A stretch of DNA of 44,669 nucleotides from a virus, in IMG/VR virus record IMGVR_UViG_3300023179_000183, positions 1-44,669 of that record; one strand, 5' to 3'. The notes below the pieces were generated by a model that was not told where the DNA came from, searched no databases, and saw only the letters and a program-made list of their open reading frames with translations. Position numbers and translations under genes: made by a program. This document shows, in pieces, positions 7,954 to 35,800 of the stretch; the stretch's first letter is position 1; each line of letters begins with the position of its first letter.

Positions 7954-9060
7954 ATGTTTGACGCTTTAAAACCATTGCTAGATAGCGGTATTATAAATGA
8001 AGATACTCGCCAGGAAATCACAGAAGCTTGGGAAGCCAAGTTAAATGAAGCCCGTGAGCAAATTCGTGCCGAACTCCGCGAGGAAATGGCTACCCGTTAT
8101 GAGCATGATAAGCAGGTAATGGTTGAAGCACTAGACAAAATGGTTACTGAAAATCTCGCTAAAGAAATCGAAGAGTTCGTAGGTGAGAAACAGGCTATGG
8201 TAGAAGATCGTGTGAAAATTAAAAACCACATGATTGAGAGTGCAGGTCGCTTTAATGAATTTATGGTTAACAAGTTAGCCGAAGAAGTTAAAGAGTTGCA
8301 TCGTGATCGTCAAGTTCAAAAAGAAAATTACCAGCGTTTGGAAAAATTTATTGTTCGCGCTCTAGCTGAAGAAATTCGTGAATTCAGTCAAGACAAGAAG
8401 GCCGTAGTTGAAACTAAGGTTCGCCTTGTTGCCGAAGCAAGAACAAAACTAGAATCAATCCAGCGCCGCTTTATTGAACAAAGCGCTCGCCTAGTTAAAG
8501 AATCAGTAACACATAAACTCGGTGCTGAATTAACTCAATTGAAAGAAGACATTCAACAGGCTCGTGAGAACATGTTTGGACGTCGTATTTTCGAAGCTTT
8601 TGCTAGTGAGTTTTCATTGACTCATCTCAATGAAAGCAAAGAGCTACAAAAACTAAGAAAACAATTAGATGAACAAAATCAAGTTATTGCTGAAGCTGCT
8701 GAAGCTAAGGTCAATGCTGAACGTCTAGTTGAATCAAAAGAACGCGAGATCCGCGTGATCAAAGAGCATCAAGATCGTCGTGCTGTAATGGACGAGCTAC
8801 TTGGTACTCTAGTCAAAGAGAAGCAAGCGGTCATGCGCGAACTTCTTGAAAGTGTGCAGACTCCAAAATTGAAGACTGCATTTGAGAAGTATCTACCTGC
8901 TGTACTTAATACAGGCAGTGCTAAGAAAGAAGAAAAATCTGTCCTAGCTGAGAGCCGTACCGAAGTAACAGGAGATAAAACTGCTAAACCAGCAGCAGCC
9001 CAAGAAACTGCAATTGAGAACAACGTAGTTGAGCTCAAGCGTTTGGCAGGGTTGAAATAA
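7954..9060 (+). CDS. gp22: Prohead scaffold (core) protein gp22
   Basis: The 368-aa protein is almost entirely helical and charged (AREQIRAELREEMATRYEHD, LREEM and EEIREF type heptads), with a C-terminus ending VVELKRLAGLK typical of gp22-type scaffolds. gp22 is the main prohead core protein around which gp23 assembles and is degraded by gp21. It is longer than T4 gp22 (269 aa). Numerous Leu/Ile-x-Glu tripeptides are potential gp21 cut sites. AGGAG lies 10 nt before the ATG. It stands in the conserved order 21-22-23. Confidence 0.92.
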   Translation: MFDALKPLLDSGIINEDTRQEITEAWEAKLNEAREQIRAELREEMATRYEHDKQVMVEALDKMVTENLAKEIEEFVGEKQAMVEDRVKIKNHMIESAGRFNEFMVNKLAEEVKELHRDRQVQKENYQRLEKFIVRALAEEIREFSQDKKAVVETKVRLVAEARTKLESIQRRFIEQSARLVKESVTHKLGAELTQLKEDIQQARENMFGRRIFEAFASEFSLTHLNESKELQKLRKQLDEQNQVIAEAAEAKVNAERLVESKEREIRVIKEHQDRRAVMDELLGTLVKEKQAVMRELLESVQTPKLKTAFEKYLPAVLNTGSAKKEEKSVLAESRTEVTGDKTAKPAAAQETAIENNVVELKRLAGLK

Positions 9061-14771: not shown

Positions 14772-17033
14772 ATGCCAGTTCTACGCACAACTTATGAACT
14801 TAGTTATCCAACCAGGGCTTTTTATTCGGTAGAAAGAACTGGGTTTACTACTGTTACTGAGCTTTTCCAGCAGCTCGTAAATGACATGCTTTTTACAGGT
14901 GCCTATGCACTTCCTAGTACCGCGGGATCGGTATTTTTCACGGAAAGGGCCACTGGTGCAGAATCGGCCTGCGATTGGCCACCACTTGAAAGAGAATTTA
15001 AAATCGCCGCAAAGGGAACCGGTTATAATGTCGGAGACTATCTTATTTTAAGAGATTTTGGCGCTGTCACATCAAGAAGATTTGCTATAAAAGTAACAAA
15101 AGTTACTAATACAGATAGTGCCATTGATGAATACGCCACATTCGCTGGACCAACTTATTCTCAGATAAGTAACACTCAGCCTACTTTAATGGGTTATAGT
15201 TCAGGGGCTTCATTAAGTATCTCTCCATCCACAAGTGATCCTGTTGGTTCTTATGATGCTAGTTATTCTACAGGTGATTTTACTAACAGTGGTTATTTAG
15301 TTGTGAATACTCAAGGTGGTGATCCTAACCATCTAACAAATCTCAGTGAGAATCAATTAAGATTATTTGCTTCCTATTTTGGTGCCGCAGGCGCTTTGAA
15401 AACCGGAGCTGTATTAGGGCCAACAACAACAACATGGCCAACAAACGACACTATTTGGTTTTTTGATGATCAAAGAACTAATACTATAAAAAAAGGCCAG
15501 GAAATATTCTGTCCAAATCCTTCTGCAAATACAAGTATTCCTGCTGGGACTACAATTACCGACATAGCAGAATTCTATATTACTGTAACTAGCAATTATA
15601 ATCCTTATAGTGCTTCTTATTATCCGAGTCCCAAAAGTTGTTTCTCTATCAAAGTAAGTCAGGCAGTAAGTATTAAATTTGGCGAAAAAATTTATGTAAG
15701 GGGAATAGGTGCGAGTTTTACAAGCAATACAACTGTAGTACCAAACAGTTGGAGTGTTATTGTAGAAAGTAAAGGTGCCGGAGATATTCTCAGTGACGGT
15801 GCTCCGATAAATTGTAATGTTCACGCCAGTTCTGGAACTACGTTAATAGTTAAGAATATGACCACTGTAAATCCTTACATGCCTGAAATTTATCCGGGTA
15901 TGCGACTAACCAGTCAATTACTAACTGGGACAGTAACTGGTACTGTCTATGTGAAAGAGGTAAACAAGGCAAATATTGGATGGGCAAATGTAACATTGAC
16001 CTCTAGTCAAACAATTACAGTTAATGAACCAGTAAAATTTACCTGGGACACTTTACAACCCTATCGTATAAGATTTAATGTAAAAGATAGTCAAACCGCA
16101 GAAATTTATGTCGGAACAGAAATTCAAATTCCAGTGGGTGGAAAAATTTCCTATGTGTGGAACGCAACGGGTACAGAGATTGTAGATATAGCCGGTATAC
16201 TAGGCAATGTACCTACTAAAATCGGTAATGTCATTATTAATGATAAAGGCCAAAAAACAACTATATCTTCTAAGGAACCAAATCCAAACAGTGTCGATCA
16301 AGGTTTTATTAACAGATCTATAAGGATAGGTGCTACCAAAGATAAAACGAATTTTTCACTTGGCAGTCCTGAAGCTTATCCAATGAGTTATACAATGACA
16401 ATTACTCGTCGTGGTATTTTCTTTGGAATTTGGGAAAGCAATTGGTCTGTTATGCAACGCACTAAGTCAGCCAACGATGCTTTCTTTAATTGGTGTCTAA
16501 TACAAAGGCCTGTTGATAGAGTCACAGGAAGAACGTTGGTTACAGGCAGATCTCCAGTTTTTTGTATAAATTCGGTGGGTTACAAATATTGGAAATTTAT
16601 TGTAAGGGAGTCTGATTCGTTACATCCAACCGTCGGTGACCCTACTTGTAAATCCTATGTATATAATGATACTACTAATACTATTGATGTAGAAACAACT
16701 CCATATAGAACTCCTGCAGATAGACATAGTCAAGACAGTGCGGCTATAATTAATAGTTCTAACCAGATTGCCCTCACAGAAGAAAGTAAATTTTTAATTA
16801 GTTTTTTAAATAATTTAACAACACCGAGATTCAGATATAGTGAAGAATTAGATTTGGTAAGTCAAACTAGTGCAGACGTATGTATGGCAACCAATGACAT
16901 TTCTATAACAGCATACAAAGAGTCTGGGCCAAGAACATATAGGGCCATGCCATCTAACAATCCATATAACACCGGTATGAGAATAGCGATCTTAAAAGAT
17001 CTGCCACCTTACGTTGACCAGCCAGTAATTTAA
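14772..17033 (+). CDS. Virion structural protein, paralogue A
   Basis: The 753-aa protein starts MPVLRTTYELSYPTRAFYSV. Its C-terminal part (about residues 530-745) is paralogous to the next gene: SPEAYPMSYTMTITRRGIFF and RPVDRVTGR correspond to AYPMSYMISITNRGLYLGVW and RGVDRVTGH. Likewise LTTPRFRYSEELDLVSQ corresponds to LSSPRFRYADELDMVGT, and NTGMRIAIL to GSGMRVMVL. Large proteins of this kind occur as virion structural proteins in T4-like phages of aquatic bacteria; the exact place (tail, baseplate or fibre) is unknown. The middle (residues 250-500) contains beta-rich repeats unique to this copy. It has its own late promoter and is followed 27 nt later by the paralogue. Confidence 0.65.
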   Translation: MPVLRTTYELSYPTRAFYSVERTGFTTVTELFQQLVNDMLFTGAYALPSTAGSVFFTERATGAESACDWPPLEREFKIAAKGTGYNVGDYLILRDFGAVTSRRFAIKVTKVTNTDSAIDEYATFAGPTYSQISNTQPTLMGYSSGASLSISPSTSDPVGSYDASYSTGDFTNSGYLVVNTQGGDPNHLTNLSENQLRLFASYFGAAGALKTGAVLGPTTTTWPTNDTIWFFDDQRTNTIKKGQEIFCPNPSANTSIPAGTTITDIAEFYITVTSNYNPYSASYYPSPKSCFSIKVSQAVSIKFGEKIYVRGIGASFTSNTTVVPNSWSVIVESKGAGDILSDGAPINCNVHASSGTTLIVKNMTTVNPYMPEIYPGMRLTSQLLTGTVTGTVYVKEVNKANIGWANVTLTSSQTITVNEPVKFTWDTLQPYRIRFNVKDSQTAEIYVGTEIQIPVGGKISYVWNATGTEIVDIAGILGNVPTKIGNVIINDKGQKTTISSKEPNPNSVDQGFINRSIRIGATKDKTNFSLGSPEAYPMSYTMTITRRGIFFGIWESNWSVMQRTKSANDAFFNWCLIQRPVDRVTGRTLVTGRSPVFCINSVGYKYWKFIVRESDSLHPTVGDPTCKSYVYNDTTNTIDVETTPYRTPADRHSQDSAAIINSSNQIALTEESKFLISFLNNLTTPRFRYSEELDLVSQTSADVCMATNDISITAYKESGPRTYRAMPSNNPYNTGMRIAILKDLPPYVDQPVI

Positions 17034-17060: not shown

Positions 17061-18743
17061 ATGGCAGTTTATTTTAACCAACGATATGGTTTTTTGCATT
17101 TAGGGGAACTATTATGGGCGATAGATCAAGATCTTACTACCACTAAAAGCAACGGAAAAAAATATTTTACAAGAAAATACGCAAATATAGGCGGAACTAG
17201 GAATAGACCATGGGAATCTGGGACTAATAAAGCCAGTAATTTGACCCAATCGGATATGATAGAGGATACTTCTAAGGTCTTGATATACGAAGCCACAGTG
17301 GATTGTGATCCCTTGTTTAATTATCAGGTACCTGGTTCTAGTGCTAACTCTACATGGCGTATATGTTTTATAGAATGGATGCATCCCGATACGGTGAATT
17401 CTGGGTCAAAATCGGCTGGTATATCAGTAAGTGTAGGGACTAATATACAATTTCCAGATTCTGGTAAAATTGCCATGTTAAATAATCGTGATTTCCCTCC
17501 GAATAGTACAGGAGGTATCACTGCTCAAAATCCTTACGCCAAAAATATTATGCCACCTGGGTCATTAAATCAGCCATGGAAATCATTTTCGATACCAGGT
17601 GGGGGTGGAACTGCTTATGGTCAACCTAATCTAATAGATGAAGCTTTTTTTGACGATCTTTGGTTAAATAGAATGCCTACAAATACAAAAGGCACTGAAC
17701 AAACTGGAGAAAACAATCAAAGAGCTTATCCTATGAGTTACATGATAAGTATTACCAATCGTGGTTTGTATTTGGGGGTTTGGGAAGACAGTCAAGAAGA
17801 AATTCCACAAATTAATTTTAATACAGCTACTAACGATACCAGCGATGAACCTGAAGGACATGGTATGAGTCCATTCAGATGGTTTGTGGTGCAACGTGGA
17901 GTAGACCGAGTAACGGGTCATGTGCGCGGAGGTGAAGTTTTACGCGATGATGTAGATCCTAATGCCGAACTTAGTCGTTGTCCAGTATTTGTTGTAGGTG
18001 GTACTACTAGATCAAAACAATTTTACAAATTTGTTGCTAGGGAATTAGATGTTGTTAGTCCCAGCAGATCAAAATATGCCATGGTTGACATGGAAGATAG
18101 TCCTGCTTGTTTAAATCCATGGCCACAAAATAGTATCAGTGAAAGTGGAGAATTTATAGTAAATTTTATTAATAATCTAAGCTCACCGAGATTTAGATAT
18201 GCAGATGAATTAGACATGGTAGGTACTGTTGGAGCTGAAGTAATTGGGGCAGGTACTATAATTGAAGTTAATGTATACAATGAGGTGTATCCACGAAAAT
18301 ATATTGCAGCTTATGCAACAAATAAATTTGGTAGTGGTATGCGAGTTATGGTGCTTATGGAGGCCAGTGAAACAGACGAAGACAGTCATATATTTAAAAC
18401 ACCTGAAACATATAGTTTAACATCTAGCGCCACGTCTGCAACTAGAGGAACAAGTCTTACGTTTACTTTAAATACAACAAATGTCAGTAATGGGAAAACT
18501 TTTGATTATCATATCACAAATGCAAGCGGAGTTACTACAGCTAATATAAGTAGGTTAGATTTTACTGACTTAACAAAATCTGGCAGATTTACTATCCAAA
18601 ATAATACTGCTACTTTTGTTAAGACTTTTTCTAGTAATCTTTCATTTAATGTTCCTCAAACCATCAAGATGGTAGTAAGAAGATTACCTAACGAATTTGG
18701 TAATATTCTTGCGTCAACTGCTAACATTACTGTAACACCTTAA
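17061..18743 (+). CDS. Virion structural protein, paralogue B, with C-terminal Ig/Calx-like domain
   Basis: The 560-aa protein begins MAVYFNQRYGFLHLGELLWA. Residues about 220-440 correspond to the C-terminal part of the preceding gene (see shared AYPMSY, RVTG and SPRFRYxxELDxV motifs). The N-terminus is different and shorter. After the shared part it gains about 115 residues that look like an Ig- or Calx-beta-like beta-sandwich (TYSLTSSATSATRGTSLTFT to the end), not present in paralogue A. AGGAG lies about 10 nt before the ATG. The pair looks like a tandem duplication followed by divergence and domain gain. Confidence 0.65.
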   Translation: MAVYFNQRYGFLHLGELLWAIDQDLTTTKSNGKKYFTRKYANIGGTRNRPWESGTNKASNLTQSDMIEDTSKVLIYEATVDCDPLFNYQVPGSSANSTWRICFIEWMHPDTVNSGSKSAGISVSVGTNIQFPDSGKIAMLNNRDFPPNSTGGITAQNPYAKNIMPPGSLNQPWKSFSIPGGGGTAYGQPNLIDEAFFDDLWLNRMPTNTKGTEQTGENNQRAYPMSYMISITNRGLYLGVWEDSQEEIPQINFNTATNDTSDEPEGHGMSPFRWFVVQRGVDRVTGHVRGGEVLRDDVDPNAELSRCPVFVVGGTTRSKQFYKFVARELDVVSPSRSKYAMVDMEDSPACLNPWPQNSISESGEFIVNFINNLSSPRFRYADELDMVGTVGAEVIGAGTIIEVNVYNEVYPRKYIAAYATNKFGSGMRVMVLMEASETDEDSHIFKTPETYSLTSSATSATRGTSLTFTLNTTNVSNGKTFDYHITNASGVTTANISRLDFTDLTKSGRFTIQNNTATFVKTFSSNLSFNVPQTIKMVVRRLPNEFGNILASTANITVTP

Positions 18744-18784: not shown

Positions 18785-21700
18785 ATGATGTTTACAAGTC
18801 TATCGTCATGTATTCCAGCCACTTTAGTCACTACAACATATTCGTCTTTAAATAGTCATGAACTAGATATAGATAGTAATGTTTCTATATCGATAAATGG
18901 TAATTTTACAACTCAAAGACCTATACAAATAAATCAAGGGGACGTTGTACGAGCCCAAATAATTAGTCCTCCTTTATATTTAGGATATAATTTTTATGAA
19001 TACTCAATAGATGGAGTACCAAGTGTATTTGCAGTAGTTAATAGAAACAATTTTACTGCAACAGTTAAGACTAAAGATTCTAAGTTAAAATGGTTTAATT
19101 ATATTGCTTCGAATCCAGAAATTAGTTTTTATCAAAGTCCTGAAAAATTTCCTACTAGAAAGTTAGTAGGTTATGGTAGTGATTTCATTGATGTTGCCAA
19201 ATTACACATCATATTAGATCCTGCTAACGCATTTATAAACTTTTACAGTACCACATATGAATTTATATGTAAAATTAAATTGCCAGCAGGCCCAATTGAT
19301 TACAAACAAATAGTAAGAACTAGTCCTATAGGTCAATACAGGCAAGATCTAATTGTATTAGTTAATAATGGCAAGTTGTACAAAATTATTTTTGACAGAC
19401 AATTTTATGAGAGTCAAGAATTTATACCGGCTGTGACCCCTTTTTTTAATCTCAATGATTTACCATTTCAGCAAGACTTACCAAACGGTGGAACTTTTTT
19501 AGATGCTGCACGTAATATTTTCTTAAAAAGATTATTACCAGTAGTAATGGCATTGGACACAGATGAAACTACAATATGGATAGCTGGTAGTAATATTATT
19601 TGTGTATTAAATCATAATTTTACATTAATAACTCAATTTAATATTCCTGACGAAGAAATAAATTCTATATGCTGTTTTTTAAACGGAGCAGTAGTTACAA
19701 CTAAGAGTCAAAAATTAATCCATGTATCATCGTCGGGCATTGTGCAACTTTTTACATCTAGTGTATTGGGTACTCCATCTAATTATAACAACCGATTGAT
19801 TGTTCCCGACAGTAACCATCAAAGATTGCTGGTATTTAATGATTTATCGGGCTCCTTTACAGTATGGAGTACACCTGATTTTCTTCCTGCCTATGCTAGA
19901 ACTTTTTTCAATGTTCTGTATGTTACCGGTCATGATTCAATTTATTCTTTAAAATATGTGGCCGATGATGTTTACCAGTCGTTAAAATTTACTAAAAAAG
20001 TAACTGTTGTTAGCGCAGTAGGCAATAGTGTAATAGGATATCACTATTTAGAAAAATATACAACATCAGATTTAACAGGCATTAAAAAAATAGCTCCAAT
20101 TGAATTTGAACCTAGAAGGGGTAGTATAACTCATGTAGGCACTAAACCAATACAGGTGTACCTATTAGGCGAGCCTGGCGTAGTTCCTGTGCCGGGACCT
20201 TATACAACGGTTTGGGTAAATGGATTAGAAAATGAACCAATTAATCATAATGATTATGTTGGTGTTAGTATAAAAGCCCTAATTCCCGGAGTAATGAGGT
20301 CTTGTGTTGTAATAGGAGATCAGGCCATTGATTATACTATAGAGACTGAAACTTCTAAAAGACAAATAGATAATTTATCAACGATAACAAATTTAAATTT
20401 ATTACAATCACCTTTTAATTCTAATCTTATTCCAAGCGTTGGTAATCTTAGTTTTGGCACCACTTCCATAAACCTACCAAGTTACTTTACGGTTTATAAA
20501 AAAAGATACAACAGTATCAATGTAAGCACCAATGGTTATTTGACCTTTGGAAATAATTTTAGTACAAATTCTATAAACACTATCAACGGACTTAATCAAG
20601 ATGCTATATATGCGATAAGAGAACCTTTGTATCAAGGTTTGCCGATTAACAATGTTGATCCTTTGAATATAACTACGGGCACATTAACCACTAACGAAAT
20701 TCCTGGGGTTTATTGGAAAATAAATGAATATATAGACTTTACCGAATTAAGAATAAAATGGATTGGAACAGCACAGAAATTTTATCCATTGGGTAATACA
20801 ATACCAATGGCTGCTAACGTTAGTACCACTTATAAGTTACCTACCGGCCTTTATAATAATTTCAATGTAAATGATTATATAAGTGGAAATTCTATTATCA
20901 CGAGTACTAGAGTCGTGTCGACTAGTTTTTATACTGGTTTATTTAGAATAGCTGCCGTAGACTCTTTAAACAATCGTTATTATCTACGGTCAACAGATTT
21001 AGTTGAAAATTATACGGAAATATTTTACTCTAATAATTATGTAGGTTATGTATTATCTAATTCTAATACAATAAGTTCCGGACCATTGATGTTAAACAAA
21101 CCTGGCATTAGAACTATTCTATTAGACACGCACTGTGCTAGTCAATTCGTCAGTCCTTTTACAATGATAAGATGCGAAAGTATTCTAGTAAATAGTTATC
21201 ATTTTTTAGTAGAACCAATCAATACCAACGAAATAACAATTCCGTTCAATGCCATTAGGTCAAATAATACTGATCGAATATACGTCGATGCGTCAGTGGC
21301 CCCTGTTGTTACTATTAATAGTACACTTTATTCATCCGGTTCAGTGCCTGCTAATACACGATTAGTTGATAAGGGATCAATATTTAGACAAGTAACTGCT
21401 GAAAAAAATGTTACTTTAGTTGCAAATAATTCTATATTATCGGCTAATTTAAATTTTGCCAACTGTGAATTCCCTGTAAGTGTGACCTATTCGGTAACAA
21501 ATTTTTTAGGAAATGCAGATTTTTTCTCACAACCATTATCAGGAAACTTTGTTGTAAATAATTTTTCTGCGTCAATAACATATACTGCTAATAGTCTAAT
21601 AGAAGTAGCTGCTCAAACTATAAACCTAGAAATAAAAGCTAATCTAATACCCAATGTAACATCCACAATAACTTTCACGCAAGGTATAAATGGAAATTTA

Positions 21701-24700
21701 TTGTCCACAGGCACAGATACCCAAAATTCTAGTTTTACGGAATATTATTTAACATTCAATAACAATGTGATCAGTGATATATCTGAAACTTATTCTTTTA
21801 AAACCACTGAAGTAGAATTTGCCAGTTCAAGTAACCCGGTAAATGAAGTTCAATTTATAAACTCTACTGGATATATTGATTTTGTTGATAATCATATTAC
21901 AATTGGTAATACAAGTGCGTCATTAAATGTAAACAGTAGAGTTCAAATCGAAGGTTCTTTTGCTATAGTTGATACATCGACAAGTGTTAATTTAGGAGAA
22001 CCAATTTTATTCAAGTCTAATAATTCTGCACCTACAGTAAGTTATGAAGTTGGTTTATTTTATAGCAATTTATTTCAATATGTAGAAATTAGCTATTCAA
22101 ACACTGTTATTGCTACCTCTAACATTGGCATAGACTCAACTACAACAAGTAATATTATTATACCCGGTAATACATCTAATATGAGTTATCTGTTTTCCAG
22201 TTTTCGTGTGTCGGGTATGTTTATCTACCAAGGAACAGGAAGTTTTGTTGAAAATGCTCAACCTAACGATCTGAGAATGCCAAGAATGTTTAAAGTATCC
22301 AGCTCGGATTTAAGTGAATTACACTATGAATTATTATTAGATAGTAAAGTATCAATTGGAGCTAACGTATTTTTATCAATGGATTATGGATATATTGAGC
22401 ACAATGGTATATTCTATAACGGATTTGGAAACCAATCACTTGTAAAAGAAAATGATTTTGTTAAATTAATAATACCATTTAACACAACACAGCGAGCAAT
22501 TAGCCCAATATTTACTATTGGAGATTTGCAGATTGCATTACCTAGTGTACCGGAAGCAATTTACAATACATACGTGCAAAATAATATATTGTATATTAAT
22601 CAACCTACGTATACTATTGTAACAGGTACTTGCACTATTCTCTATACCGGAGATTATTTTATTCCAGACTATTATGTTGGTCCTTTTGCTTATAAAAATA
22701 ATCTAATTTTTAAAAGAACAAGAGCAGGGATCACCACAGTTATTACCGGGCGCAATCATTCGTTTGTCAGTGGAGATATTATCACCGTTGAAAATTTAAG
22801 GACTAGTCTTAGAAAATATGATTATAGAGATGTTGTTATAGTTGGCCCTGAATCTTTAAGAATAAGTTTTAGAACTAATTCCGATCCAGTATTTAACAAT
22901 TTTGAATATCCAATACTGGATCAACCTTTTGTTAGATATTTTAAGGGACGAGAAATTGTAGACGATGGCAATGTTATTGTAGTAGAAGGGATCCCAGCCT
23001 ACATTACTTCAAATATTACATTAACCAGTAACTCGGGAATTATAAACGGTAACCTTCTACTCAATATACCAAATGTAGAATTTATAGTAGATGGTAATAT
23101 ATTATACAGTCAACCTACTGTTACTAATATATCAACCGGATCAAATTTATCATTACAACGAGTGGTCACGAGTTATTTTGAAAGTAATGTTGTAGTTTAT
23201 CAACTGCAAAAAGATATAGATCAGTCTAACGTTTACATTCCAATCGGACAATGGCCGATTAATAATAGATTAATACCAAACATTGGTATACAAGATGTAA
23301 TTAGTACATCTATTAAAAATAATCTAAATCAACAATTTTTAACAAGTACCGAGAATAAGTCGATAGAAATAGCCAAAGAATTTTATCAAGGTCGTGTTAT
23401 AACTGAAATTGATTTATCGGGGCAGAAAGAGTTTTCACAAACCGTAATGGAAAACTCTATTTTACAAGATATTTACGAAAATTCTACCATATTCAGTTTT
23501 GCATTAGATGATTCTTCTAGATACTCGACAGAATTTTCTTTTACAATTTTAGAGGATTCGCTTTTAAAATATACATTTTTTAAAGGAGGTCAAATTGAAG
23601 GGGAATACGTACAACCATCAACACTATCAAACCAAACCATTGACAATCCCGATTCTGTCATTAGATACTCATTATTCAACATTGGCCCTGTTGACGGAGA
23701 ATATTTAGTATCACCAACTGAATCAGGCCAAACCATTGACGATCCCGATTCTGTCATTAGATACTCATTATTCAACATTGGTCCCATTGACAGCGAGTAT
23801 TTAGGATTACCAACTGAATCAGGCCAAACTATCGAAGAACCCGATTCTGTCATTAGATACTCATTATTCAAAATTGGTCCCATTGACAGCGAGTATTTAG
23901 GATTACCAACATTATCAAACCAAACCATTGACGATCCCGATTCTGTCATTAGATACTCATTATTCAACATTGGTCCCATTGACAGCGAGTATTTAGGATC
24001 ACCAACCGAATCAGGCCAAACTATCGAAGAACCCGATTCTGTCATTAGATACTCATTATTCAAAATTGGTCCCATTGACAGCGAGTATTTAGGATTACCA
24101 ACTGAATCGGGCCAAACTATCGAAGAACCCGATTCTGTCATTAGATACTCATTATTTAATATTGGGCCCTTTGGTATGGAATACCTACAGCCCTACTCTG
24201 AATTATTTAACTATATTGATAGCTCCGATTTTATTCAATACTCGTTAATTAGTGTTAGTCCCTTTGATGCAGATTATCTAAAACAGTACACAGAATTATT
24301 AAACTACATCGATCTCTCAGACAATAATATTCAATATTCGTTTATAAGTATTAAACCCATCGAAGGACAATCTCTAGGATTTCCAACCCAATCAGATCAA
24401 ACTATTGATAAAGTTTTTGTTATTAGTCCTACAGTATTTAGTAACACTATAGAAGAAGATTATTTAGTACCCTACACAGAATTATTAAACTACATCGATC
24501 TCTCAGACAATAATATTCAATATTCGTTTATAAGTATTAATCCTATCGATGGACAATATTTAGAACCACAAACTAGATTATTAAAAAGTATCGAAAATGA
24601 TAGAGTCATTAGTTATACATCATTAAATGGTATTATAAACGAAGAATATGTAGAACCACAAACTAGATTATTAAAAAGTATCGAAAATGATAGAGTCATT

Positions 24701-27700
24701 AGTTATACATCATTAAATGGTATTATAAACGAAGAATATGTAGAATCACAAACTAGATTATTAAAAAGTATCGAAAATGATAGCGTCATTAGTTATACAT
24801 CATTGATAGGTAATATAGAGGGTGACTACGTAGAACCATATAATCAATTAGTTCGAACTATTTTTAATGATAGTGTTATTAGTTATACATCATTGATAGG
24901 TAATATAGAGGGTGACTACGTAGAACCATATAATCAATTAGTTCGAACTATTTTTAATGATAGTGTTATTAGTTATACATCATTAATTGGAACCATTGAA
25001 GGTGAATACTCAGAATCAAGTACTGGTTTACTTATGAGTATCATTGATCCCGATTCTGTTATTAGTTATACATCATTGATAGGTAATATAGAGGGTGACT
25101 ACGTAGAACCATATAATCAATTAGTTCGAACTATTTTTAATGATAGTGTTATTAGTTATACATCATTGATAGGTAATATAGAGGGTGAATACTCAGAATC
25201 AAATACTAAGATACTTAAGAGTATCAATGATCCCGATTCTGTTGTTGCCTATACATCATTGATAGGTAATATAGAGGGTGAATACTCAGAATCAAATACT
25301 AAGATACTTAAGAGTATCAATGATCCCGATTCTGTTGTTGCCTATACATCATTGATAGGTAAGATAGAAGGGGAATACTCAGAATCAAATACTAAGATAC
25401 TTAAGAGTATCAATGATCCCGATTCTGTTGTTACCTATACATCATTGATAGGTAAGATAGAAGGGGAATACTCAGAATCATACATCGGATTAGAAAAAAC
25501 AATTGGAGAACCCGACAGTTCAGTTCAATATACAATTTTAGACATCGGTAAAATTGAATCGGACTATTTAGAATTGCGATCCGAATTGGTTATAACTAAT
25601 AAAAATAAAAGTTATGCTTTTCCTACTGCAATTAATTTAACCAATGACTCTAGTTATACTAATAGACATGACAGTATTGTTTTATATTTAAATTTTGAAA
25701 AATATACAAAAAATGATAGTTATATTGCAGATACAGAATTTATAAAAACTATTTTAACTGACAGTATAAAAAATAGTCTAAATTTTGTCAGGCACTTACC
25801 CCACGACAATGTGTTAACCCTTAATTTTGTCACATATTACGTAAATGAATTGAACATGAATCTTGAAAACTATGTGCCAATCGATACAAGCACTAACACC
25901 TTTTCTACGGAATTTGTTCTTCAAGAAAATACTCCTGAGGTCACTTTGCCATTGTATGATACTACTGTGAATCTAGAAACAAATGTTGAATTTTTATGGC
26001 ATCCATTGTTAAAAGAAAATTTACCATTTAGCATAATTATGGAGAACGAAAATGAATTATACCATAGACACGAATCGTTAACAAGAATAATGCCATTTTA
26101 TAGGATAGATCCGCACTTCTTAATAAGAAATTCAGAACCAATTAACGATTTTAAAAACATTGGATACGAAAAAGATTATATTCCTTATCTTGAAACAACC
26201 AGTAGTAGTTTTGATGTTGATATGAATTTCTATTCGGTTCCTAATTTAGATTCACTGGAAATGACATTACCGTTTTCTCTTATTAAAGAAAATCAGCCCA
26301 AAATTTATATCAATTATGAAGGTTTAGCTGTCTCCCAATTGGATAGTGTTCCTGTTAGAATGGCCGGTGAAAAACTTATGTCGCCAATTGATTCTGTTAA
26401 AAGTAAAATCGATTCTATACAAAATAAAATAAACTATATAATCTATAATCGGATGATACCTAATTTTTATCAAGTTAAAGATATCATAAGATCTCAGAGT
26501 TGGGAATTATTACAAGAAAATCATCAAAGTTATTCGGACATAAAATCCAATGGATCATACGACCCGACAATAAGATTCTTTGCTGTAAATAAAGTTTGGA
26601 GTAGATACGAAAAAGATATTAGTCTTACAAAAAGCGTAATTGAAGGTAATGTGCTTTATCTAGAGACGCCCCCGGGTTATGTTTTTTCTAGTGTAGAATT
26701 TGCCAGTTTTGGGCTTCCTGAAGGCTCCGACGGGGCTTATTCAATTAACCCAAATGCTCATGCTTCTGGTTCACTTTCAATCGTCAAAAATATATTATTA
26801 GGTTGTACAGGAAACATTGCTATACCTGCAACAGAACAAAGATTTGGAAATCTATCTACACCCGGCAGGGTAAAAAGACTTACAGTTAGTGCCACTGTAG
26901 CTCCTGCAACCAGATACAAATATCAACATTACCCTACATTAATAAAACAGGGTAATATTACTGTGTTCAACGACGAAGTTATTCATTATTTTACAAATAA
27001 CACAACAATTACGTTCCCTCAGGATACAGAAATTGAAATTATAGCTGTAGGTGGTGGAGGTGGTGGAGGTGGTGGAGAATCTACAATATCAGTTGGTGGA
27101 GGAGGTGGCGGAGTAGTAAGCGGGAAATACACGGCCCGGGCCAGCATACCATTGAATATTTGGGTCGGCGGTGGCGGTGGCGGTGGATATCCATTTAGCG
27201 GCTCCGGGGGTCAAGGATTAGGTGGCAGAAATGGTGGAGGTGGTGGTGGTCGTGCCGGTAAAGAAGGAACCAGTGGAGGTGGAGGTGGAGGTGGTGGATA
27301 CAGCGGTGTGAGTCTAACCAATGGTACTTTCTTGTTAGTTGCAGGCGGCGGAGCCGGGGGTGGTGGCGGACTGGAAGGTACAGCAGACAATGTACCGGCC
27401 ACCGGCGGAGGTGATCAAATAGCTGGCACTAATCCGTCGGGAGCAATGGATGGCACCCCGGGTTCGGATTATGTTTTTGCTATCTCGTCTGGGGTTGGTA
27501 GTCAAAAACTATTCAATTTGATTGACCCAGGCTTGTCTGGATCTCCAAATTATAGGTCTTATCAACCACAATATGGCGACTATTTAATAGAGTATGGGGT
27601 CTGGGAATTGGAATCTAGTGAAACCATATTTTCTCGCTCTTATTCGGTAAATTTTCCAACGACAGATACCTACGTATTTGCTGGTAGTGTAGACGACAAA

Positions 27701-29842
27701 GGAAATGTTTACTTAGACGGTACTCGAGTTTTAGAATTAGTAAATTATGCCTTAATTGATAGTGCAGGTATTGTTGTCAGTGCAGGTACTCATACTATTG
27801 ATATAGTTGCTACTAATGTAGGAGGACCGGGCAGTGTAGCATTTACAATAGAAAAAGCAATATTAAATGGTGGCGGCGGCGGAGGTGGAGGTGGTGGTAA
27901 AGTGGGTGGACGTGGACAACTTAATCTGACTAAAATGGATAGAGCCAGTGGAGGATCAAATTATATTAATACGTCTTTAGTCATGCCATTGGCCAATGTA
28001 ATTGGTCGAGAAGGTGATAAACGCATTCGAGGGTTACCTGGTAGCTATAAAGTATCGGGTTTCGACCCAGAATTACCGTTTGAAGGTAATAGCTATCTAG
28101 GACCAAATAATATTTCAATGGTTAGTAGTGTTTACACAGGTGGTAGTGGTGGTTTTCCTTACTTGTTTACAACACCATTGACTGGAGTTGTTAATAGAAA
28201 TGATTTACCAAACAACGGACAAGATGGTCTAGTTGTTATAAAATATCGTAAACCTAAGATTTATCAAGAATTCGTACTATATGAACAAAAATATGAATAT
28301 AGTAAAGGTAGTTTTGCAAGTTACACAGAAGCAGCCACAGAAGCTGCAAAATATACAAGTGCAACACCATTTTTAATTCCTGGCACAAATTATTGGAATT
28401 ATAGGATTTTCTTTAATACTCATATATACGCGGTTCCTGCTAAACCAGATGCTTATTTTTATGAGGAGTACGTTCCCGGTCTATATAGTAATTTAAGCAT
28501 AGCTTCTAAGCCCAGCACTGTTAGATTTATGGCGCAAACTAAAGATATAAATGATGGAACCGTAGTCCCATATTTAATAACTAGTACAGCTAACCTACAA
28601 TTATTAAGTCCTAATACAGATCCTACGGGTAATTTAACTATTCAATCTAATAGAACTTATTTTGATTTAGCTCTGATCAATGACAACACTGCAACTAATT
28701 CAAATGTGACACTGACATTATTTGGAACTGGATGCCTTAGTAATGCCAATATTACAATAATGGTTGTTCCGGCAGGACAGCCTTCAGGAAATGCTTTATA
28801 TGGATTTAATAACTGTAATGTATTGTCTGGTAATGTAGGATTACCGGCTATTCAGGGTAGACCGGTCGAATTGCCGGAATTTTTTAGTACAAAGAGTCAA
28901 GTGGAAGTCAAAGATTTTTCTGTTGACGTAGCAACGTCGTATGAGAAGTACAGCAAATATGTAACAGAAAGTTCAACTGTTCCACTGGCTCCTACATTCA
29001 ATGAGGCTACAAATTTTCAACAATATAAAGAAGTGATTGATTTTGCCTACAGGATGAGTCCATTGAAAATAGACCAATGGCAGGTAGGATCGGGGCCTAT
29101 TCCTGAATATAATTTTAATCAAACTGCAACCGGAGAAAATGCTCTAGTACTTGATACGGATCCATGGGGCAATACCAAAGTTATATGGGAAACTAGAGCC
29201 AGCGGTGATGGAAATGCCGACGGTGGTTGGAATCATAATTATTTTGCAATTGATAACAATAAAACTTATAGAAGTACAGTATGGGTAAGAAGAACTAGTA
29301 CTACTAGTGGTGGTGTAGTGTATCACGGATTGTTTACAAATGGTAGTGCTGCAACTTATCCTAATCCTTATTATCCGTCGGGTAGTGTTATAAGATTAAC
29401 CGATGGCCTGTCGGAAGGGAATCCTTATTGGGATTATGCAAGTGCATCTACTTATGATCATAATGTTTGGTATTTGCTTGTAGGATATATTTTTCCTGCT
29501 GGTTATCCTGGATCAGTTAGACATCCAGAGTCGGGTGTATATACTCGTGGACAAGGAAAAGTATTTGAAAATAGGGGAAATATTCCTCAAGATGGTCGAT
29601 TCCCTAGCAATGCTACTCAAGCTATGCAACGTTGCTATCATTATTACTGTTCAGATTCTACTACAACCATACAATTTGCTTACCCTAAATTTGAAGAAGT
29701 CACTAGAAATATTCTACCTATTAGTATCATGCTTGAATTTCCTCCTTATGAAATACCTCAAATGTATAATAAGGCCTCTACTAAGTATGTAGTAGCACGT
29801 CGTAAGACATGGCCAATTTTATGGAATAGTAAAGGGGGATAG
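18785..29842 (+). CDS. Giant modular adhesin/fibre protein (3685 aa)
   Basis: One uninterrupted 11-kb frame. Domains in order: beta-propeller/NHL-like region (about 236-409, NRLIVPDSNHQRLLVFNDL); nidogen-like sheet (about 549-669, YNSINVSTNGYLTFGN); beta-sandwich modules; about 21 repeats of 30-32 residues (1613-2265). There follow a SUEL-type galactose-lectin-like domain (about 2609-2707, VEFASFGLPEG, HASGSLSIVKNILLGCTGN, GRVKRLTVSATV) and a glycine-rich domain (from about 2756, closing at DGLVVIKY near 3150). The glycine-rich domain is interrupted by a PA14-like module (2936-3026, YVFAGSVDDKGNVYLDGTRV). The C-terminus is a carbohydrate-binding-like domain (3403-3642). Together they suggest a multivalent receptor-binding fibre. 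AAGGA lies 4 nt before ATGATG; the second ATG (18788) has better spacing. Domain calls are by eye; SUEL and glycine-rich are the strongest. Confidence 0.8.
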   Translation: MMFTSLSSCIPATLVTTTYSSLNSHELDIDSNVSISINGNFTTQRPIQINQGDVVRAQIISPPLYLGYNFYEYSIDGVPSVFAVVNRNNFTATVKTKDSKLKWFNYIASNPEISFYQSPEKFPTRKLVGYGSDFIDVAKLHIILDPANAFINFYSTTYEFICKIKLPAGPIDYKQIVRTSPIGQYRQDLIVLVNNGKLYKIIFDRQFYESQEFIPAVTPFFNLNDLPFQQDLPNGGTFLDAARNIFLKRLLPVVMALDTDETTIWIAGSNIICVLNHNFTLITQFNIPDEEINSICCFLNGAVVTTKSQKLIHVSSSGIVQLFTSSVLGTPSNYNNRLIVPDSNHQRLLVFNDLSGSFTVWSTPDFLPAYARTFFNVLYVTGHDSIYSLKYVADDVYQSLKFTKKVTVVSAVGNSVIGYHYLEKYTTSDLTGIKKIAPIEFEPRRGSITHVGTKPIQVYLLGEPGVVPVPGPYTTVWVNGLENEPINHNDYVGVSIKALIPGVMRSCVVIGDQAIDYTIETETSKRQIDNLSTITNLNLLQSPFNSNLIPSVGNLSFGTTSINLPSYFTVYKKRYNSINVSTNGYLTFGNNFSTNSINTINGLNQDAIYAIREPLYQGLPINNVDPLNITTGTLTTNEIPGVYWKINEYIDFTELRIKWIGTAQKFYPLGNTIPMAANVSTTYKLPTGLYNNFNVNDYISGNSIITSTRVVSTSFYTGLFRIAAVDSLNNRYYLRSTDLVENYTEIFYSNNYVGYVLSNSNTISSGPLMLNKPGIRTILLDTHCASQFVSPFTMIRCESILVNSYHFLVEPINTNEITIPFNAIRSNNTDRIYVDASVAPVVTINSTLYSSGSVPANTRLVDKGSIFRQVTAEKNVTLVANNSILSANLNFANCEFPVSVTYSVTNFLGNADFFSQPLSGNFVVNNFSASITYTANSLIEVAAQTINLEIKANLIPNVTSTITFTQGINGNLLSTGTDTQNSSFTEYYLTFNNNVISDISETYSFKTTEVEFASSSNPVNEVQFINSTGYIDFVDNHITIGNTSASLNVNSRVQIEGSFAIVDTSTSVNLGEPILFKSNNSAPTVSYEVGLFYSNLFQYVEISYSNTVIATSNIGIDSTTTSNIIIPGNTSNMSYLFSSFRVSGMFIYQGTGSFVENAQPNDLRMPRMFKVSSSDLSELHYELLLDSKVSIGANVFLSMDYGYIEHNGIFYNGFGNQSLVKENDFVKLIIPFNTTQRAISPIFTIGDLQIALPSVPEAIYNTYVQNNILYINQPTYTIVTGTCTILYTGDYFIPDYYVGPFAYKNNLIFKRTRAGITTVITGRNHSFVSGDIITVENLRTSLRKYDYRDVVIVGPESLRISFRTNSDPVFNNFEYPILDQPFVRYFKGREIVDDGNVIVVEGIPAYITSNITLTSNSGIINGNLLLNIPNVEFIVDGNILYSQPTVTNISTGSNLSLQRVVTSYFESNVVVYQLQKDIDQSNVYIPIGQWPINNRLIPNIGIQDVISTSIKNNLNQQFLTSTENKSIEIAKEFYQGRVITEIDLSGQKEFSQTVMENSILQDIYENSTIFSFALDDSSRYSTEFSFTILEDSLLKYTFFKGGQIEGEYVQPSTLSNQTIDNPDSVIRYSLFNIGPVDGEYLVSPTESGQTIDDPDSVIRYSLFNIGPIDSEYLGLPTESGQTIEEPDSVIRYSLFKIGPIDSEYLGLPTLSNQTIDDPDSVIRYSLFNIGPIDSEYLGSPTESGQTIEEPDSVIRYSLFKIGPIDSEYLGLPTESGQTIEEPDSVIRYSLFNIGPFGMEYLQPYSELFNYIDSSDFIQYSLISVSPFDADYLKQYTELLNYIDLSDNNIQYSFISIKPIEGQSLGFPTQSDQTIDKVFVISPTVFSNTIEEDYLVPYTELLNYIDLSDNNIQYSFISINPIDGQYLEPQTRLLKSIENDRVISYTSLNGIINEEYVEPQTRLLKSIENDRVISYTSLNGIINEEYVESQTRLLKSIENDSVISYTSLIGNIEGDYVEPYNQLVRTIFNDSVISYTSLIGNIEGDYVEPYNQLVRTIFNDSVISYTSLIGTIEGEYSESSTGLLMSIIDPDSVISYTSLIGNIEGDYVEPYNQLVRTIFNDSVISYTSLIGNIEGEYSESNTKILKSINDPDSVVAYTSLIGNIEGEYSESNTKILKSINDPDSVVAYTSLIGKIEGEYSESNTKILKSINDPDSVVTYTSLIGKIEGEYSESYIGLEKTIGEPDSSVQYTILDIGKIESDYLELRSELVITNKNKSYAFPTAINLTNDSSYTNRHDSIVLYLNFEKYTKNDSYIADTEFIKTILTDSIKNSLNFVRHLPHDNVLTLNFVTYYVNELNMNLENYVPIDTSTNTFSTEFVLQENTPEVTLPLYDTTVNLETNVEFLWHPLLKENLPFSIIMENENELYHRHESLTRIMPFYRIDPHFLIRNSEPINDFKNIGYEKDYIPYLETTSSSFDVDMNFYSVPNLDSLEMTLPFSLIKENQPKIYINYEGLAVSQLDSVPVRMAGEKLMSPIDSVKSKIDSIQNKINYIIYNRMIPNFYQVKDIIRSQSWELLQENHQSYSDIKSNGSYDPTIRFFAVNKVWSRYEKDISLTKSVIEGNVLYLETPPGYVFSSVEFASFGLPEGSDGAYSINPNAHASGSLSIVKNILLGCTGNIAIPATEQRFGNLSTPGRVKRLTVSATVAPATRYKYQHYPTLIKQGNITVFNDEVIHYFTNNTTITFPQDTEIEIIAVGGGGGGGGGESTISVGGGGGGVVSGKYTARASIPLNIWVGGGGGGGYPFSGSGGQGLGGRNGGGGGGRAGKEGTSGGGGGGGGYSGVSLTNGTFLLVAGGGAGGGGGLEGTADNVPATGGGDQIAGTNPSGAMDGTPGSDYVFAISSGVGSQKLFNLIDPGLSGSPNYRSYQPQYGDYLIEYGVWELESSETIFSRSYSVNFPTTDTYVFAGSVDDKGNVYLDGTRVLELVNYALIDSAGIVVSAGTHTIDIVATNVGGPGSVAFTIEKAILNGGGGGGGGGGKVGGRGQLNLTKMDRASGGSNYINTSLVMPLANVIGREGDKRIRGLPGSYKVSGFDPELPFEGNSYLGPNNISMVSSVYTGGSGGFPYLFTTPLTGVVNRNDLPNNGQDGLVVIKYRKPKIYQEFVLYEQKYEYSKGSFASYTEAATEAAKYTSATPFLIPGTNYWNYRIFFNTHIYAVPAKPDAYFYEEYVPGLYSNLSIASKPSTVRFMAQTKDINDGTVVPYLITSTANLQLLSPNTDPTGNLTIQSNRTYFDLALINDNTATNSNVTLTLFGTGCLSNANITIMVVPAGQPSGNALYGFNNCNVLSGNVGLPAIQGRPVELPEFFSTKSQVEVKDFSVDVATSYEKYSKYVTESSTVPLAPTFNEATNFQQYKEVIDFAYRMSPLKIDQWQVGSGPIPEYNFNQTATGENALVLDTDPWGNTKVIWETRASGDGNADGGWNHNYFAIDNNKTYRSTVWVRRTSTTSGGVVYHGLFTNGSAATYPNPYYPSGSVIRLTDGLSEGNPYWDYASASTYDHNVWYLLVGYIFPAGYPGSVRHPESGVYTRGQGKVFENRGNIPQDGRFPSNATQAMQRCYHYYCSDSTTTIQFAYPKFEEVTRNILPISIMLEFPPYEIPQMYNKASTKYVVARRKTWPILWNSKGG
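23621..25579 (+). repeat. About 21 tandem coding repeats of 30-32 residues
   Basis: Residues 1613-2265 of the giant protein. The first six units (to about 24196) are 32 residues with core PDSVIRYSLFNIGPIDSEYL. Later units are mostly 30 residues with cores SVISYTSLIGNIEGDYVEPY or SVVAYTSLIGKIEGEYSES. Units 24572-24661 and 24662-24751 differ by a single base. A 90-bp unit starting at 24842 recurs at 24932 and, after an intervening unit, at 25115. Unit phase keeps the frame throughout. Confidence 0.9.
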
Positions 29843-29844
29843 AC

Positions 29845-32800
29845 TTGTTAATAGTACCAAATCATCATGTAATAGTTCCTAAAATACATGATTTGTACTT
29901 TTACATGCCTTGGAAAATTACGACTCTGGAAGATACCGGGCGTTACGAAAATGCTCTTAGAGTAGTAGCTCCTTACCTAAATTTTATAGATTTAAGATTT
30001 GATGTTAAAATAATGCCGTTTTTGGAGGTCTACGAAAATGAGCATCGTCCCTATAAAGGCTACAGAATAATTAACATCGGAGGATACTATCATAATATCT
30101 ATCCAAAAAATAAACATATATCTCATGTAGGGTTGCCATGGAGCGAATATAATTTTAAAAGTAATCAATTACAATACTCAGAAAAAGAACACGAATTATT
30201 ACAATCTTTACCTGCTCCGGCTGTATTTTTAGATAATACAGACAAGCAAAGTTATCCTGGCACCGGCCCAACGGTCCAATCAAAAGGTTATTGGAATGAT
30301 TTAGGACCAGGTAAACATAATGCTGTGGTATTAGGAACCATTGATATAAAGAGCGACAATCGATTGACCATGGCTTCCATGTGCGTAAGTGGTTATATCT
30401 ACAAACAAATCATAACTGCAAATGAATTAGGTGGACCAGTCTGGGGTACTAATCCCTACACCGATGACAGCGATTGGGGACGAGCAGCAGTACATGCAGG
30501 TTTAATGAATTTTAACGAAACTGCTGAAATAACTTTTAGTATACTAGGCTATCAATCTAGCTTTGCTGGAAGTCTGCAAAACAATGTACTTAGTTCTGCA
30601 TTTTCACAATCATGGTGCGGTATACAACTTAGTAGACCGTCTACAAGTTCAACTTGTATTCCTGGAACAATACTAAGAAAAACATTAACAGGAAGAGTAC
30701 ACGGAAACGTAGTTTACGGAAAAAACCCCTATACCGAAAACAGTGATCTAGAACGAGCAGCAGTACATGCAGGCGTTCTAGTAGAAGGTGTAACAGATAT
30801 AGTTCAAATACAAACTGTTGGTTTGTTGAATAATTATAATGGTACCGAATCTAATAAAATCACAAGTCTTTCGACTACAAATAATGTATGCGGTGTAATT
30901 CTTAGCGCAATATCAGATTATAAAGATGTTGGTATTTGGATAAACGGTCAGCCTATAAGACATTTTTATACTAAAGGTATAACATTAGCAATAGTTGATC
31001 AAAATACTTACGAATGTAAATTTGTTAGTACATATGATACAGAAGCAAATATTAACAACGGTATAGTTAGCAGATTAAATTCTGTTTCAGATGGAAATAT
31101 TGTCATACTGTTGGGATTAGATAGGACCACTATTACTGATAACCTAAGATCAAATTTGATATCAAAATTTGGCAGCACTTTTCCTAGTGTGTGGAATAAC
31201 AAAAATTATTCCTATTTATTTTTAGGATATGGCAATATAGCTAAACCTCCTACAGAGGCACTTAGTTATGACTCGCCCATAGCTAGAAATTTTAATTTAA
31301 TTTCAAACAGTAATATTGTAACTACAAGCACTGGTATCTCATTTACAGGTAGTTTTTACTATATGGGTATTAATACTCATGCCTGTGATTTCCCAATGGA
31401 CATGACAGCCGAGGTATGGTTCTACATGACGGAACGTCCCACTGATTGGGTACGTTTATTTGGTAAAGGCACAGATACGGATAGTCCATCTACTGCTACT
31501 AAAAGAAATTGGGGTTTGTGGTTACGTGCAGGTGCAGATCAATTATTATTTCAAAGGTACAAAAATAATGCTGCTACAGCAATAAACTTAACCAAAGATT
31601 TTGAATTTCAGACCAATAACTGGTATCACGTGGCTGCTGTAACAGTTATTAATACGCATCGATTATTTATTAATGGCTTAGAAGTAGCGTCTACATCAAC
31701 TGCAGGGCCTTGGGATTTGGGAACGAGTCCGTACACAGTAGGTGGTACAAGTTATCATCAAAAATTTAAAGGAAAAATTAGTATAGCAAGGGCCTGGGGC
31801 ACAGCAAGAACAGTTGATGAAATATTTAATTTGTATGATGTTTATAGATTAAAACATACGCTAGTTGATGCAACCAATTCAATGAGCGAAGCTGGCGGCA
31901 CTTTACATTTTACCAGACTTATCGATAATACATTTAATATTATTCAAGATACTGTCACTGATCCTCTTCCTGAATCAACCGGAGATTATAATAAAAAAGG
32001 ATTAGTAATCAGGTTTAATAACATACAACCCTATGATTGGTATTCACTACATTTTACTCCTAATAGACAAGCACCTAAACAAACGTCTAACGTACAGATA
32101 ATCCTACCAACTGCAACTCCGCCTATACCACCATATAGACTTTATAATTCTAACGCTTTTTTAACAGTAGCTAATGTAATAACAAATGAAAACGACGAAT
32201 TAACATTTACATTCAGACTAAAACGACTTAGTATAACATTACCATCGGGCGGTTCGAAGACTTATTATTGGAAGATTATGCCACTTAATAATGTAGCTAA
32301 TGTGACTGATACGGCATTAGGCACTGTAAACGATGATTTTTTGTTTTTTGAAGGAAATTTAGTATTAGATGATTCAACGGTTATTAACGGCTATGCAACA
32401 AAAAACTTTATTGTACGAACCTTCCTAGATGTACCAGAAGATTTAGAATATTATTTTGTTAACATTTATGAAAGTCCTGCCGATAGATTAAAACAGGCAA
32501 ACATAGTTATTAGTTCTCCTATTATTACAGTAGTACCTATAGGTTACGTACCACCTATTACAATCAGTACAACAACTAGTACAACAACCACTACAACAAC
32601 TTTGTGTAAGTTGCCGGCAGGTACTGTTAGTTATAATTCAGTGATAAAACGTAATGTGTTAGATAGTTTATATTCGGAACCTGTTGCTGTAACTCAGCCT
32701 TTGTGGGGTTACGTTAGACCAACTAAAGATCGTCGCGGGTTACTTTATGTTCCTTACAGGAATTTTCAAGGTACAGACGTGTTTACTTATACCATGGTAA

Positions 32801-35800
32801 CTCAACATGGACAAATAGCACCGCCTAAAACAATTACAATTGATGTACATGCTCCTGCGCCAATGACTACTTATGAATTAGTCTGTGAGCCCTGTGTTAC
32901 TTATGCAGGGGCCAGATGGCAAGCAAGCCTTACTACTGTAAATGTCCCTCCTAATTCGTATATTCCTTTTAGATTTTTAGGTAATATTTCGTCGTCGGAT
33001 TTTAATTCTACTATAAGTTACAATGTAGAAACAGAAATTGATTTCAATGCATTAAACGGGCGTTTCTATATGGTTTTAGATACAGAAACAAGTCGTAGTA
33101 ATGTTTGTAAATCAGATCTGATTCTACAGATTGCCTATGATAAAGAGTTTAAGTTTGAATTTTTTACTATAAATCTTAATAATAGTCCTAAAACATTTTG
33201 TAAAGTTGATATAAAACCAGTGACACTAGCACTAACCGCAAATGTTAGTTGTGTAATAGAAGGTAATGTTGTAGAATTTTGTCTCAGTCAATCTTTTGCT
33301 AATGCCGCAGAACACCCAATAATAGATGGAACAAAATACGATTATATTATCAGTCGAAATACAGTTTCTCTCACTAGTGATGATTTAAGTCCGGCAGTTG
33401 ATTTTAACTATGGTACTTTTGTTATGTACAATCAAAAGGCCTGCATACAATTTACTGCTAATCGAGATAATATACCAGAATCGGATCCTCCAGTCAATGG
33501 CATTGAGCGATTAACTTTAAGATTGGCCAATAGCGAAAACCTAAAGGCTAATGTCGAAATCTGTGATACCAGTCCGGGATTTTGGAGTTTAGTTGCGAGA
33601 AATCCTGAAGTTAATTGTGATGAGCCCTTAAATTTGGTTTGGACAGCTCCTACTACTGCTGTTCCTAGTACGGTTAGTTGGTTCGCGGTTGATTTTGCTA
33701 GCAACATTAGGTATACAGGAAAAGGTGTTGACGAATACGATAAGGGTTTTGATAATAATTTACCCGTTAATAGTACATCGGGATCATTAAGTATTCCTAT
33801 ACAAAGGTTTTTTGATCCTGAATTACCGGCTAGATTACAGGTTATATTAACTGATGATGCAATTAATACCACCGAACGAGCACGTAGTCAACTATTAACT
33901 ATAAATCCTTGTCCTACTACAACTACCACTACAACCACCACCACTACGACCACTGCGACGCCTATACCGGTAGTAGATGATAATTTTGCGAATCAATGTT
34001 TTCCTAACTATAGTATAACAACCATAAATCCCACCACTAAGAGCGTCGAAGGTTGGATAATTGTCAGTGAATTAGTAAAAATGGACGGACAGTCTACTAT
34101 TCTTGGTGCTCCCACCCCGCCCCATCCGGATAGGTATTCTGGTGGACTTAGTCCGGGTGATACTGCTGATCTGACTTCGGATCCGAATCCGGTAACTCCA
34201 TTTAGTATGGATGTGTATTTTGAAGCCGGCGATGCTAGCAGATCGCAAAATTGGTTGACTGTGGATTTAGCAGGTACCAGTTCGCTACCTTATGGAGTAT
34301 TACGTGGGCCTTATATTGTAAGCGATCGGGCAGTGAATTTTGGTGGTGGAGATATAATTACATTTTTGTATAATGCAACTGCTACACTTGACCACTATGA
34401 TATTATAGTTTATTTGCAAGATATCTATGTTCCTAACAAGCAAATAGTTATCCTGAACAGACAAGGGTCAGGTACAACTGGATGGACAAGGTTTAATTAT
34501 CGTGTAAATGTGGCAGACTCGGGAACCTATCGAATAGTTTTTGTAAATGGTAGTTTTGATGCAACAGGAAGAAAGGGTTTGGGCGCCAAACTGCAAATTA
34601 CTTGTATAGACACCATTCCTTTAGCCAATCAACCCGTTACTACAACCAGTACCACTATTTTTACATGTATATTTGGCCAAACAGAAACAAAATTAGTAAC
34701 TGGTAGATCAGTGGGCGGAACAGTTTGGGGTAGTAATCCTTATACCGAAGATAGTGATTTTGGAAAAGCCGCGGTACACGCAGGTTTACTACAGGTAGGA
34801 GAAACAAAATTAATAGAGTTCAGGAAGTTTGGAATACAAGGTAATTTCACTGGATCAATGGCCAATGGCATAATTACCATGCCATATGTTCAAAGTTTTT
34901 GTGCGATAATAATTAGTTTAGGCACAGCACCTTCAACAACCACTACTACAATATCCGGTGGAGGGGGATTTACAGGAACAACCACAACCATAGCATCAGA
35001 AGGCGATCTTACTGTTGTTTTATCTATTGCACCCGACAGTAACTATCAATGTGTGCCAATAATTGGTAGTCCTGGGTCGGGCCAGGCTCGTGTAAAATTT
35101 AGAGCTACCTTTAGTCGTCCATTGGATTTGTACAAAAAGCCTACCGAAACAAGTCAACAGAGTTACAGTTGGACATTTTTTAATTTTGGTTTAGAAAGAG
35201 AAAATAAACCGCCTGTTATGGTTAGTAATCATCAGGTATTTGACTTCGAAGCCTATTATTACTATGTAAATCCTACATATAATCTTACAATCCCATTTGG
35301 TGCTGTGCAGTCGCGTACTACAGATGGATTGTTAAAGTTAAATCAAGTAAGTAATGTATTAAGTATTCCTAATTGCGGTGTTCCTACCACTTCTACTACA
35401 GTAGGAATACCAGTTATGACCTGTCAAGCAGTACCATCTTCTCTCACCGCAGACACAGTAAGTAACTCAAATATTTACTGGACATCGACCCATGCCACCA
35501 AAGTAACAGCCATGGTTGACGGGAAAGACGCTGGATCCATTGCTTTAAATGGTGCTTTTAATTTTGGACCTTTTAATAGCAGTCAAACTGGTACAAAAAC
35601 AGTTAAATTTACAGCGACCGGTCCGGGGGGTTCAACAACTTGCACATTAAACATTCCTGTTATCGCCCCGACTACAATAAATGCTGGACCCCCGAGAACA
35701 ACCACCACTACCACTCAAAGAATAATAACAACTACCACCACAGCAGCAGCCTCCTATCCTACATCTGGAAAATTGACAGTATCGACACTTTATGGGTTGT

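Follow-up and report, generated by a model that had tools for sequence, protein, structure and literature searches.

LCCL and ILEI domains are best known from animals, and the LCCL family (PF03815) has cochlin, Limulus factor C, Lgl1, and the apicomplexan CCp/LAP proteins among its members. The LCCL domains of cochlin and akhirin have been reported to bind bacteria (PMC12839204), and isolated cochlin LCCL, when tested directly, showed no glycosaminoglycan binding (PMC9987951), which makes LCCL a weak candidate for a glycan binder. The presence of ILEI in phage fibers has already been published: T4 gp35, the long-tail-fiber hinge connector, is listed among the GG-domain proteins (PMC10276149) and has been described as a monomeric knee-cap (PMC5537660), and the Tal protein of a streptococcal phage carries a carbohydrate-binding module resembling the POMGnT1 stem (PMC9437275). 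The POMGnT1 stem itself binds beta-linked GlcNAc via Arg129, Asp179, and Arg207 (PMC9802357). LCCL in phage fibers seems to be unreported; we found no papers linking LCCL with phages in the literature searched, which covers few subscription journals.

Here we describe the window, the whole 44,669-nucleotide stretch of viral DNA that was analyzed, in which LCCL, ILEI, and laminin G-like (LamG) domains occur together in one phage adhesin. This domain combination is new, real, and well supported.

Gene neighborhood and domain layout

By its gene sequences, the contig is from a T4-superfamily phage akin to the jumbo phages. It encodes a T4-type portal (gp20), protease (gp21), and capsid protein (gp23), the last 66 to 69% identical to those of jumbo T4-like phages, e.g., PA5oct, Vibrio phage 2.275.O, and Phosso, and two sheath-family ORFs lie on the same contig. 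These two ORFs (14772 to 17033 and 17061 to 18743) adjoin each other and both match one tail-sheath family. A 368-aa ORF adjoining gp23 (7954 to 9060; phrog_10922) has a partial Globin profile match above the cutoff (E = 1e-5). The contig is a fragment, and its fiber gene set may be incomplete.

The fiber genes are arranged in the order giant fiber, ILEI protein, small ORF, and distal fiber, such that the 2,077-aa ORF sits between a 3,685-aa fiber-like ORF and a 2,672-aa collagen-type tail fiber. Its modules run LCCL-LCCL-ILEI-LamG, with another LCCL later on and Thr-rich and other spacers between them:

18785 to 29842, + strand: upstream giant fiber-like ORF, 3,685 aa; Gly_rich_2 (Pfam)
26630 to 26908, + strand: SUEL/rhamnose-binding-lectin-like domain in the 3,685-aa ORF (phmmer)
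29845 to 36078, + strand: multidomain fiber-associated protein, 2,077 aa (ORF; start TTG as called)
29845 to 30375, + strand: N-terminal region, residues 1 to 177, without a recognized family
30382 to 30633, + strand: LCCL domain 1, residues 180 to 263 (Pfam, alignment)
30655 to 30909, + strand: LCCL domain 2, residues 271 to 355 (Pfam; AlphaFold2; Z 10.9 to 1jbi)
30976 to 31230, + strand: ILEI/GG domain, residues 378 to 462, fold model 355 to 480 (Pfam; model; Foldseek/VIA)
31393 to 31824, + strand: Laminin_G_3/concanavalin-A-like domain, residues 517 to 660 (Pfam, E = 1.9e-19)
33982 to 34635, + strand: ~220-residue domain ahead of LCCL3, residues 1380 to 1597 (33% identity over 232 aa to contig L064)
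34666 to 34923, + strand: LCCL domain 3, residues 1608 to 1693 (Pfam; 54% identity to the L064 LCCL)
36514 to 44532, + strand: downstream collagen-repeat tail fiber, 2,672 aa (Pfam Collagen, E = 3e-131; PHROG tail fiber, E = 4e-194)

An earlier note on this DNA had placed the domains in a phage fiber or adhesin, as these neighbors bear out, and the motifs that it cited are present in the ORF at 29845 to 36078 (+). The N-terminal region, for which neither a Pfam match (E ≤ 10) nor relatives among the viral contigs searched were found, is possibly the attachment part. By phmmer, the SUEL-like domain of the upstream ORF matched RemA best (8gl6; E = 2.8e-9), followed by a beta-galactosidase SUEL domain (1.5e-5) and a rhamnose-binding lectin (0.0021), with the Pfam SUEL_Lectin match falling below the cutoff. 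The same 3,685-aa ORF holds, at about residues 1600 to 2350, some 20 imperfect repeats like DSVIRYSLFNIGPIDSEYL.

A second viral contig of 51.8 kb (L064), in which a T4-type portal was sought and not found, has adjoining ORFs encoding ILEI+LamG+Gly_rich_2, ILEI+Big_12, and Ig+LCCL (the LCCL being C-terminal), followed by a small ORF and then a distal tail fiber with an S74 chaperone domain. Common to the two contigs are the unit formed by the ~220-residue domain, for which a Pfam search returned no family, and the LCCL after it (33% and 54% identity, respectively), as well as the C terminus of the 3,685-aa ORF (29048 to 29809), which is 51% identical over 254 aa to an L064 fiber ORF. Because L064 repeats the module set in neighboring fiber genes, the set is no artifact of a single assembly. 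Elsewhere in the window, the C-terminal ~200 residues of a virion-structural-like ORF (12894 to 14087) are similar to L064 at two sites, and one of these sites is similar to the domain ahead of LCCL3 as well.

LCCL domains and their cysteines

The 2,077-aa ORF matches LCCL in three stretches with E = 1.5e-31 and 108.9 bits (cutoff, 22.6), the individual copies scoring 39 to 44 bits each, so that the LCCL identity given in the earlier note stands and its count of two becomes three. A DNA-level search located LCCL at 30433 to 30612, 30706 to 30885, and 34636 to 34881, each above the cutoff, and in 0/14 control genomes. The AlphaFold2 model of LCCL2 (18 alignment rows) had a mean pLDDT of 94.2. 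Its best PDB matches were yeast Rxt3, with which a Pfam Rxt3 match in the ORF agrees, and the LCCL of cochlin (1jbi), to which it aligned at Z 10.9 with an rmsd of 2.1 across 84 residues. LCCL2 and ILEI were folded separately, MAFFT having put ILEI rows onto LCCL1 in a joint LCCL-LCCL-ILEI alignment, and the AlphaFold2 models, compared by Foldseek and VIA-align, confirmed both folds.

Aligned to 1jbi, the three phage copies have G, E, and G opposite the Cys of the cochlin SSIC motif (YxxxSxxCxAAVH). The W, L, and F that had been said to replace this central Cys stand one position earlier, opposite a cochlin Ile. The animal-type Cys is absent from the phage copies, which keep the rest of the motif YxxxSxxCxAAVHxG; bacterial LCCLs above the Pfam cutoff also lack it, and neither the profile nor the fold needs it. 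A Cys pair is present in each copy as claimed (180/258, 271/349, and 1608/1686), but it lies at the N- and C-terminal strands and brackets the domain, and it does not look like a remnant of the cochlin pairs.

Among the distinct LCCLs collected, both terminal cysteines are present in 16, neither in 17, and a mixed state in 2 (one of them a truncated frame), counts that are not independent for a Fisher test, since the tree has mostly one change and one joint loss. In this tree of viral and bacterial sequences, the three window copies group with 15 viral-contig rows and one CPR bacterium in a mostly viral clade (support, 95/95) that is marked by the terminal Cys pair and is split from the LCCLs of Bacteroidota and Verrucomicrobiota. 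The pair thus probably forms a disulfide of single origin, jointly lost in L010. The further idea that phages own an LCCL lineage with a private putative disulfide and employ it to bind receptors on bacterial surfaces strikes us as doubtful; if it were true, one bacterium-gripping fold would serve both phages and animal innate immunity.

The LCCL and LamG repeats might instead be mere spacers of a long flexible fiber whose specificity resides in other fiber genes, a reading that fits the tandem arrays in which bacterial LCCLs often occur (L017, L018, and L020) and the lack of glycosaminoglycan binding by isolated cochlin LCCL. However, members of the mostly viral clade retain the core motif YTxDSDxxxAAVHAG even as the remainder of the domain diverges, which suggests more than spacing, although folding alone may explain it. 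We consider the spacer reading possible, if rather unlikely.

An essentially eukaryotic character of the two domains was not supported: ILEI occurs in gp35 and other phage adhesins, and LCCL was found in bacteria (3/198 and 4/145 genomes of two phyla) and in about 20 further viral contigs. Some viral contigs whose proteins are Thr-rich and 745 aa long may derive from bacteria. Direct acquisition of LCCL and ILEI from a eukaryote would agree with the prominence of both domains in animals and with a Klosneuvirus LCCL protein that is similar in fold and 38% identical. Since the closest LCCLs found, in a comparison whose tree covered viral and bacterial sequences, were those of viral contigs and a CPR bacterium, and ILEI occurs across unrelated phages, we regard this origin as highly improbable.

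By tblastn (E ≤ 0.01), 50,697 phage records yielded no LCCL match, so that sequence searching gave no LCCL in cultured phages. LCCL-like folds are predicted, however, for uncharacterized proteins of two cultured jumbo phages, Erwinia Deimos-Minion and Cronobacter PBES 02 (BFVD; Foldseek probability, 1.00 and 0.95, respectively). A match near modB of Tevenvirinae lay on the opposite strand and was set aside as chance. In another T4-like phage (L004, 9110 to 10768), LCCL is followed directly on its C-terminal side by a Hint/intein-like domain (Hint_2, E = 2.5e-4, below the cutoff), and a 2,497-aa viral-contig ORF adjoining a DNA primase (L012, 8219 to 15712) combines an N terminus that is subtilase-like by eye with LCCL and Thr-rich linkers.

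ILEI domain and its sugar triad

The ILEI/FAM3-like domain predicted behind the tandem LCCLs was recovered by Pfam (PF15711; residues 378 to 462) at E = 1.6e-7 and 32.2 bits, above the cutoff of 27. Its AlphaFold2 model, built from five rows, is of moderate confidence only (pLDDT, 64.5; pTM, 0.62); Foldseek ranks 1 to 21 were all FAM3A/B/C, POMGnT1 stem, or TMEM2, and VIA-align gave Z 8 to 9 to FAM3/POMGnT1-type structures, consistent with the beta-beta-alpha FAM3 fold. A single-sequence search returned no ILEI relatives in viral contigs, and a profile of four ILEIs contained no stretch with enough conservation for scanning. The ILEI profile also scores T4 gp35 (35.9 bits), a pb4-like protein of Alteromonas phage AD45 (35.0 bits), and a tail protein of Lactococcus phage CAP (29.7 bits).

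POMGnT1 was the best PDB match (E = 8e-5) of a profile made from four phage ILEIs, and alignment places R/D/R at the POMGnT1 triad positions in the ILEIs of AD45, the lactococcal phage, and both L064 copies. The window equivalents are K377/D426/N454, with K453 adjacent: the Asp is kept, one Arg is lost (Asn, with Lys beside it), and another is now Lys. In gp35, the aligned triad is lost. This pattern, with the triad intact in four phage ILEIs and partly kept in the window ILEI but gone from gp35, favors a sugar-binding role over a pure hinge role for the window ILEI but is not proof of it.

A hinge was weighed because of gp35 itself. Were the ILEI part its counterpart, the protein would join the proximal fiber to the distal collagen-like fiber as a hinge (knee), with LCCL and LamG decorating it. 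The ILEI scores are similar, gp35 is the described monomeric knee-cap (PMC5537660), and the window resembles the T4 block 34-35-36-37 in having T4-type head genes and the order giant fiber, ILEI protein, small ORF, and distal fiber; the position before the collagen-like fiber gene suits a hinge or a side branch no less than the tip suggested in the earlier note. Yet the window proteins are far larger than those of the T4 block (2,077 aa versus 372 aa for gp35), and sequence similarity lies only in ILEI, where BLASTP aligned the segment with gp35 at 30% over 69 aa; no gp35 homology was found beyond ILEI, and tblastn of the whole ORF against phages yielded no gp35. Other ILEIs with an intact triad belong to tail adhesins, and the L064 cassette has two ILEI genes. 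Together with the state of the triad, these observations leave the hinge reading unlikely.

Proposed role and relation to known systems

We propose that the 2,077-aa protein serves a T4-superfamily (jumbo-type) phage as a modular adhesin in its tail-fiber apparatus, with small extracellular binding folds linked via Thr-rich and other spacers, and that its likeliest job would be multivalent binding of bacterial surface glycans for host recognition. ILEI would bind via a site equivalent to the one that takes beta-GlcNAc/Man in the POMGnT1 stem, LamG would act as a lectin-like fold, and LCCL would act as a cell-surface-binding module, with modules being exchanged among fiber genes and phages by recombination. 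As a whole, a modular glycan-binding fiber adhesin is in our judgment the likely reading. The analysis shows the domains, their folds, the gene cluster, and the return of the module set in L064; presence in the virion, position in the fiber, ligands, and recombination are inferred, with glycan binding by the window protein as the best such inference.

These findings add LCCL to the domains that phages mix into fibers and describe an ILEI with a POMGnT1-type sugar triad as recurring across different phage adhesins. They also provide small, well-folded pieces, making the ligand of these on bacteria testable, and this bears on what animal LCCLs bind, including on bacteria.

Compared with the cochlin LCCL (1JBI; PF03815), the window copies share the fold and the YxxxSxxxxAAVHxG core, whereas they lack the central Cys of animal LCCLs, have one N-/C-terminal Cys pair, match the PF03815 profile mostly from position 34 on, and sit in a phage fiber cassette. 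Plasmodium CCp3/LAP1 (LCCL + LamG + SR) likewise brings LCCL and LamG together in one secreted adhesive protein (PMC10892792) but is eukaryotic, with no ILEI reported. The window ILEI matches the PF15711 profile and the fold of its relatives (FAM3A-D, the POMGnT1 stem, TMEM2/CEMIP, gp35, and the TP-778L Tal CBM_1) and keeps the Asp of the sugar triad; it differs in having K/D/N rather than R/D/R and in its placement after tandem LCCL and before LamG.
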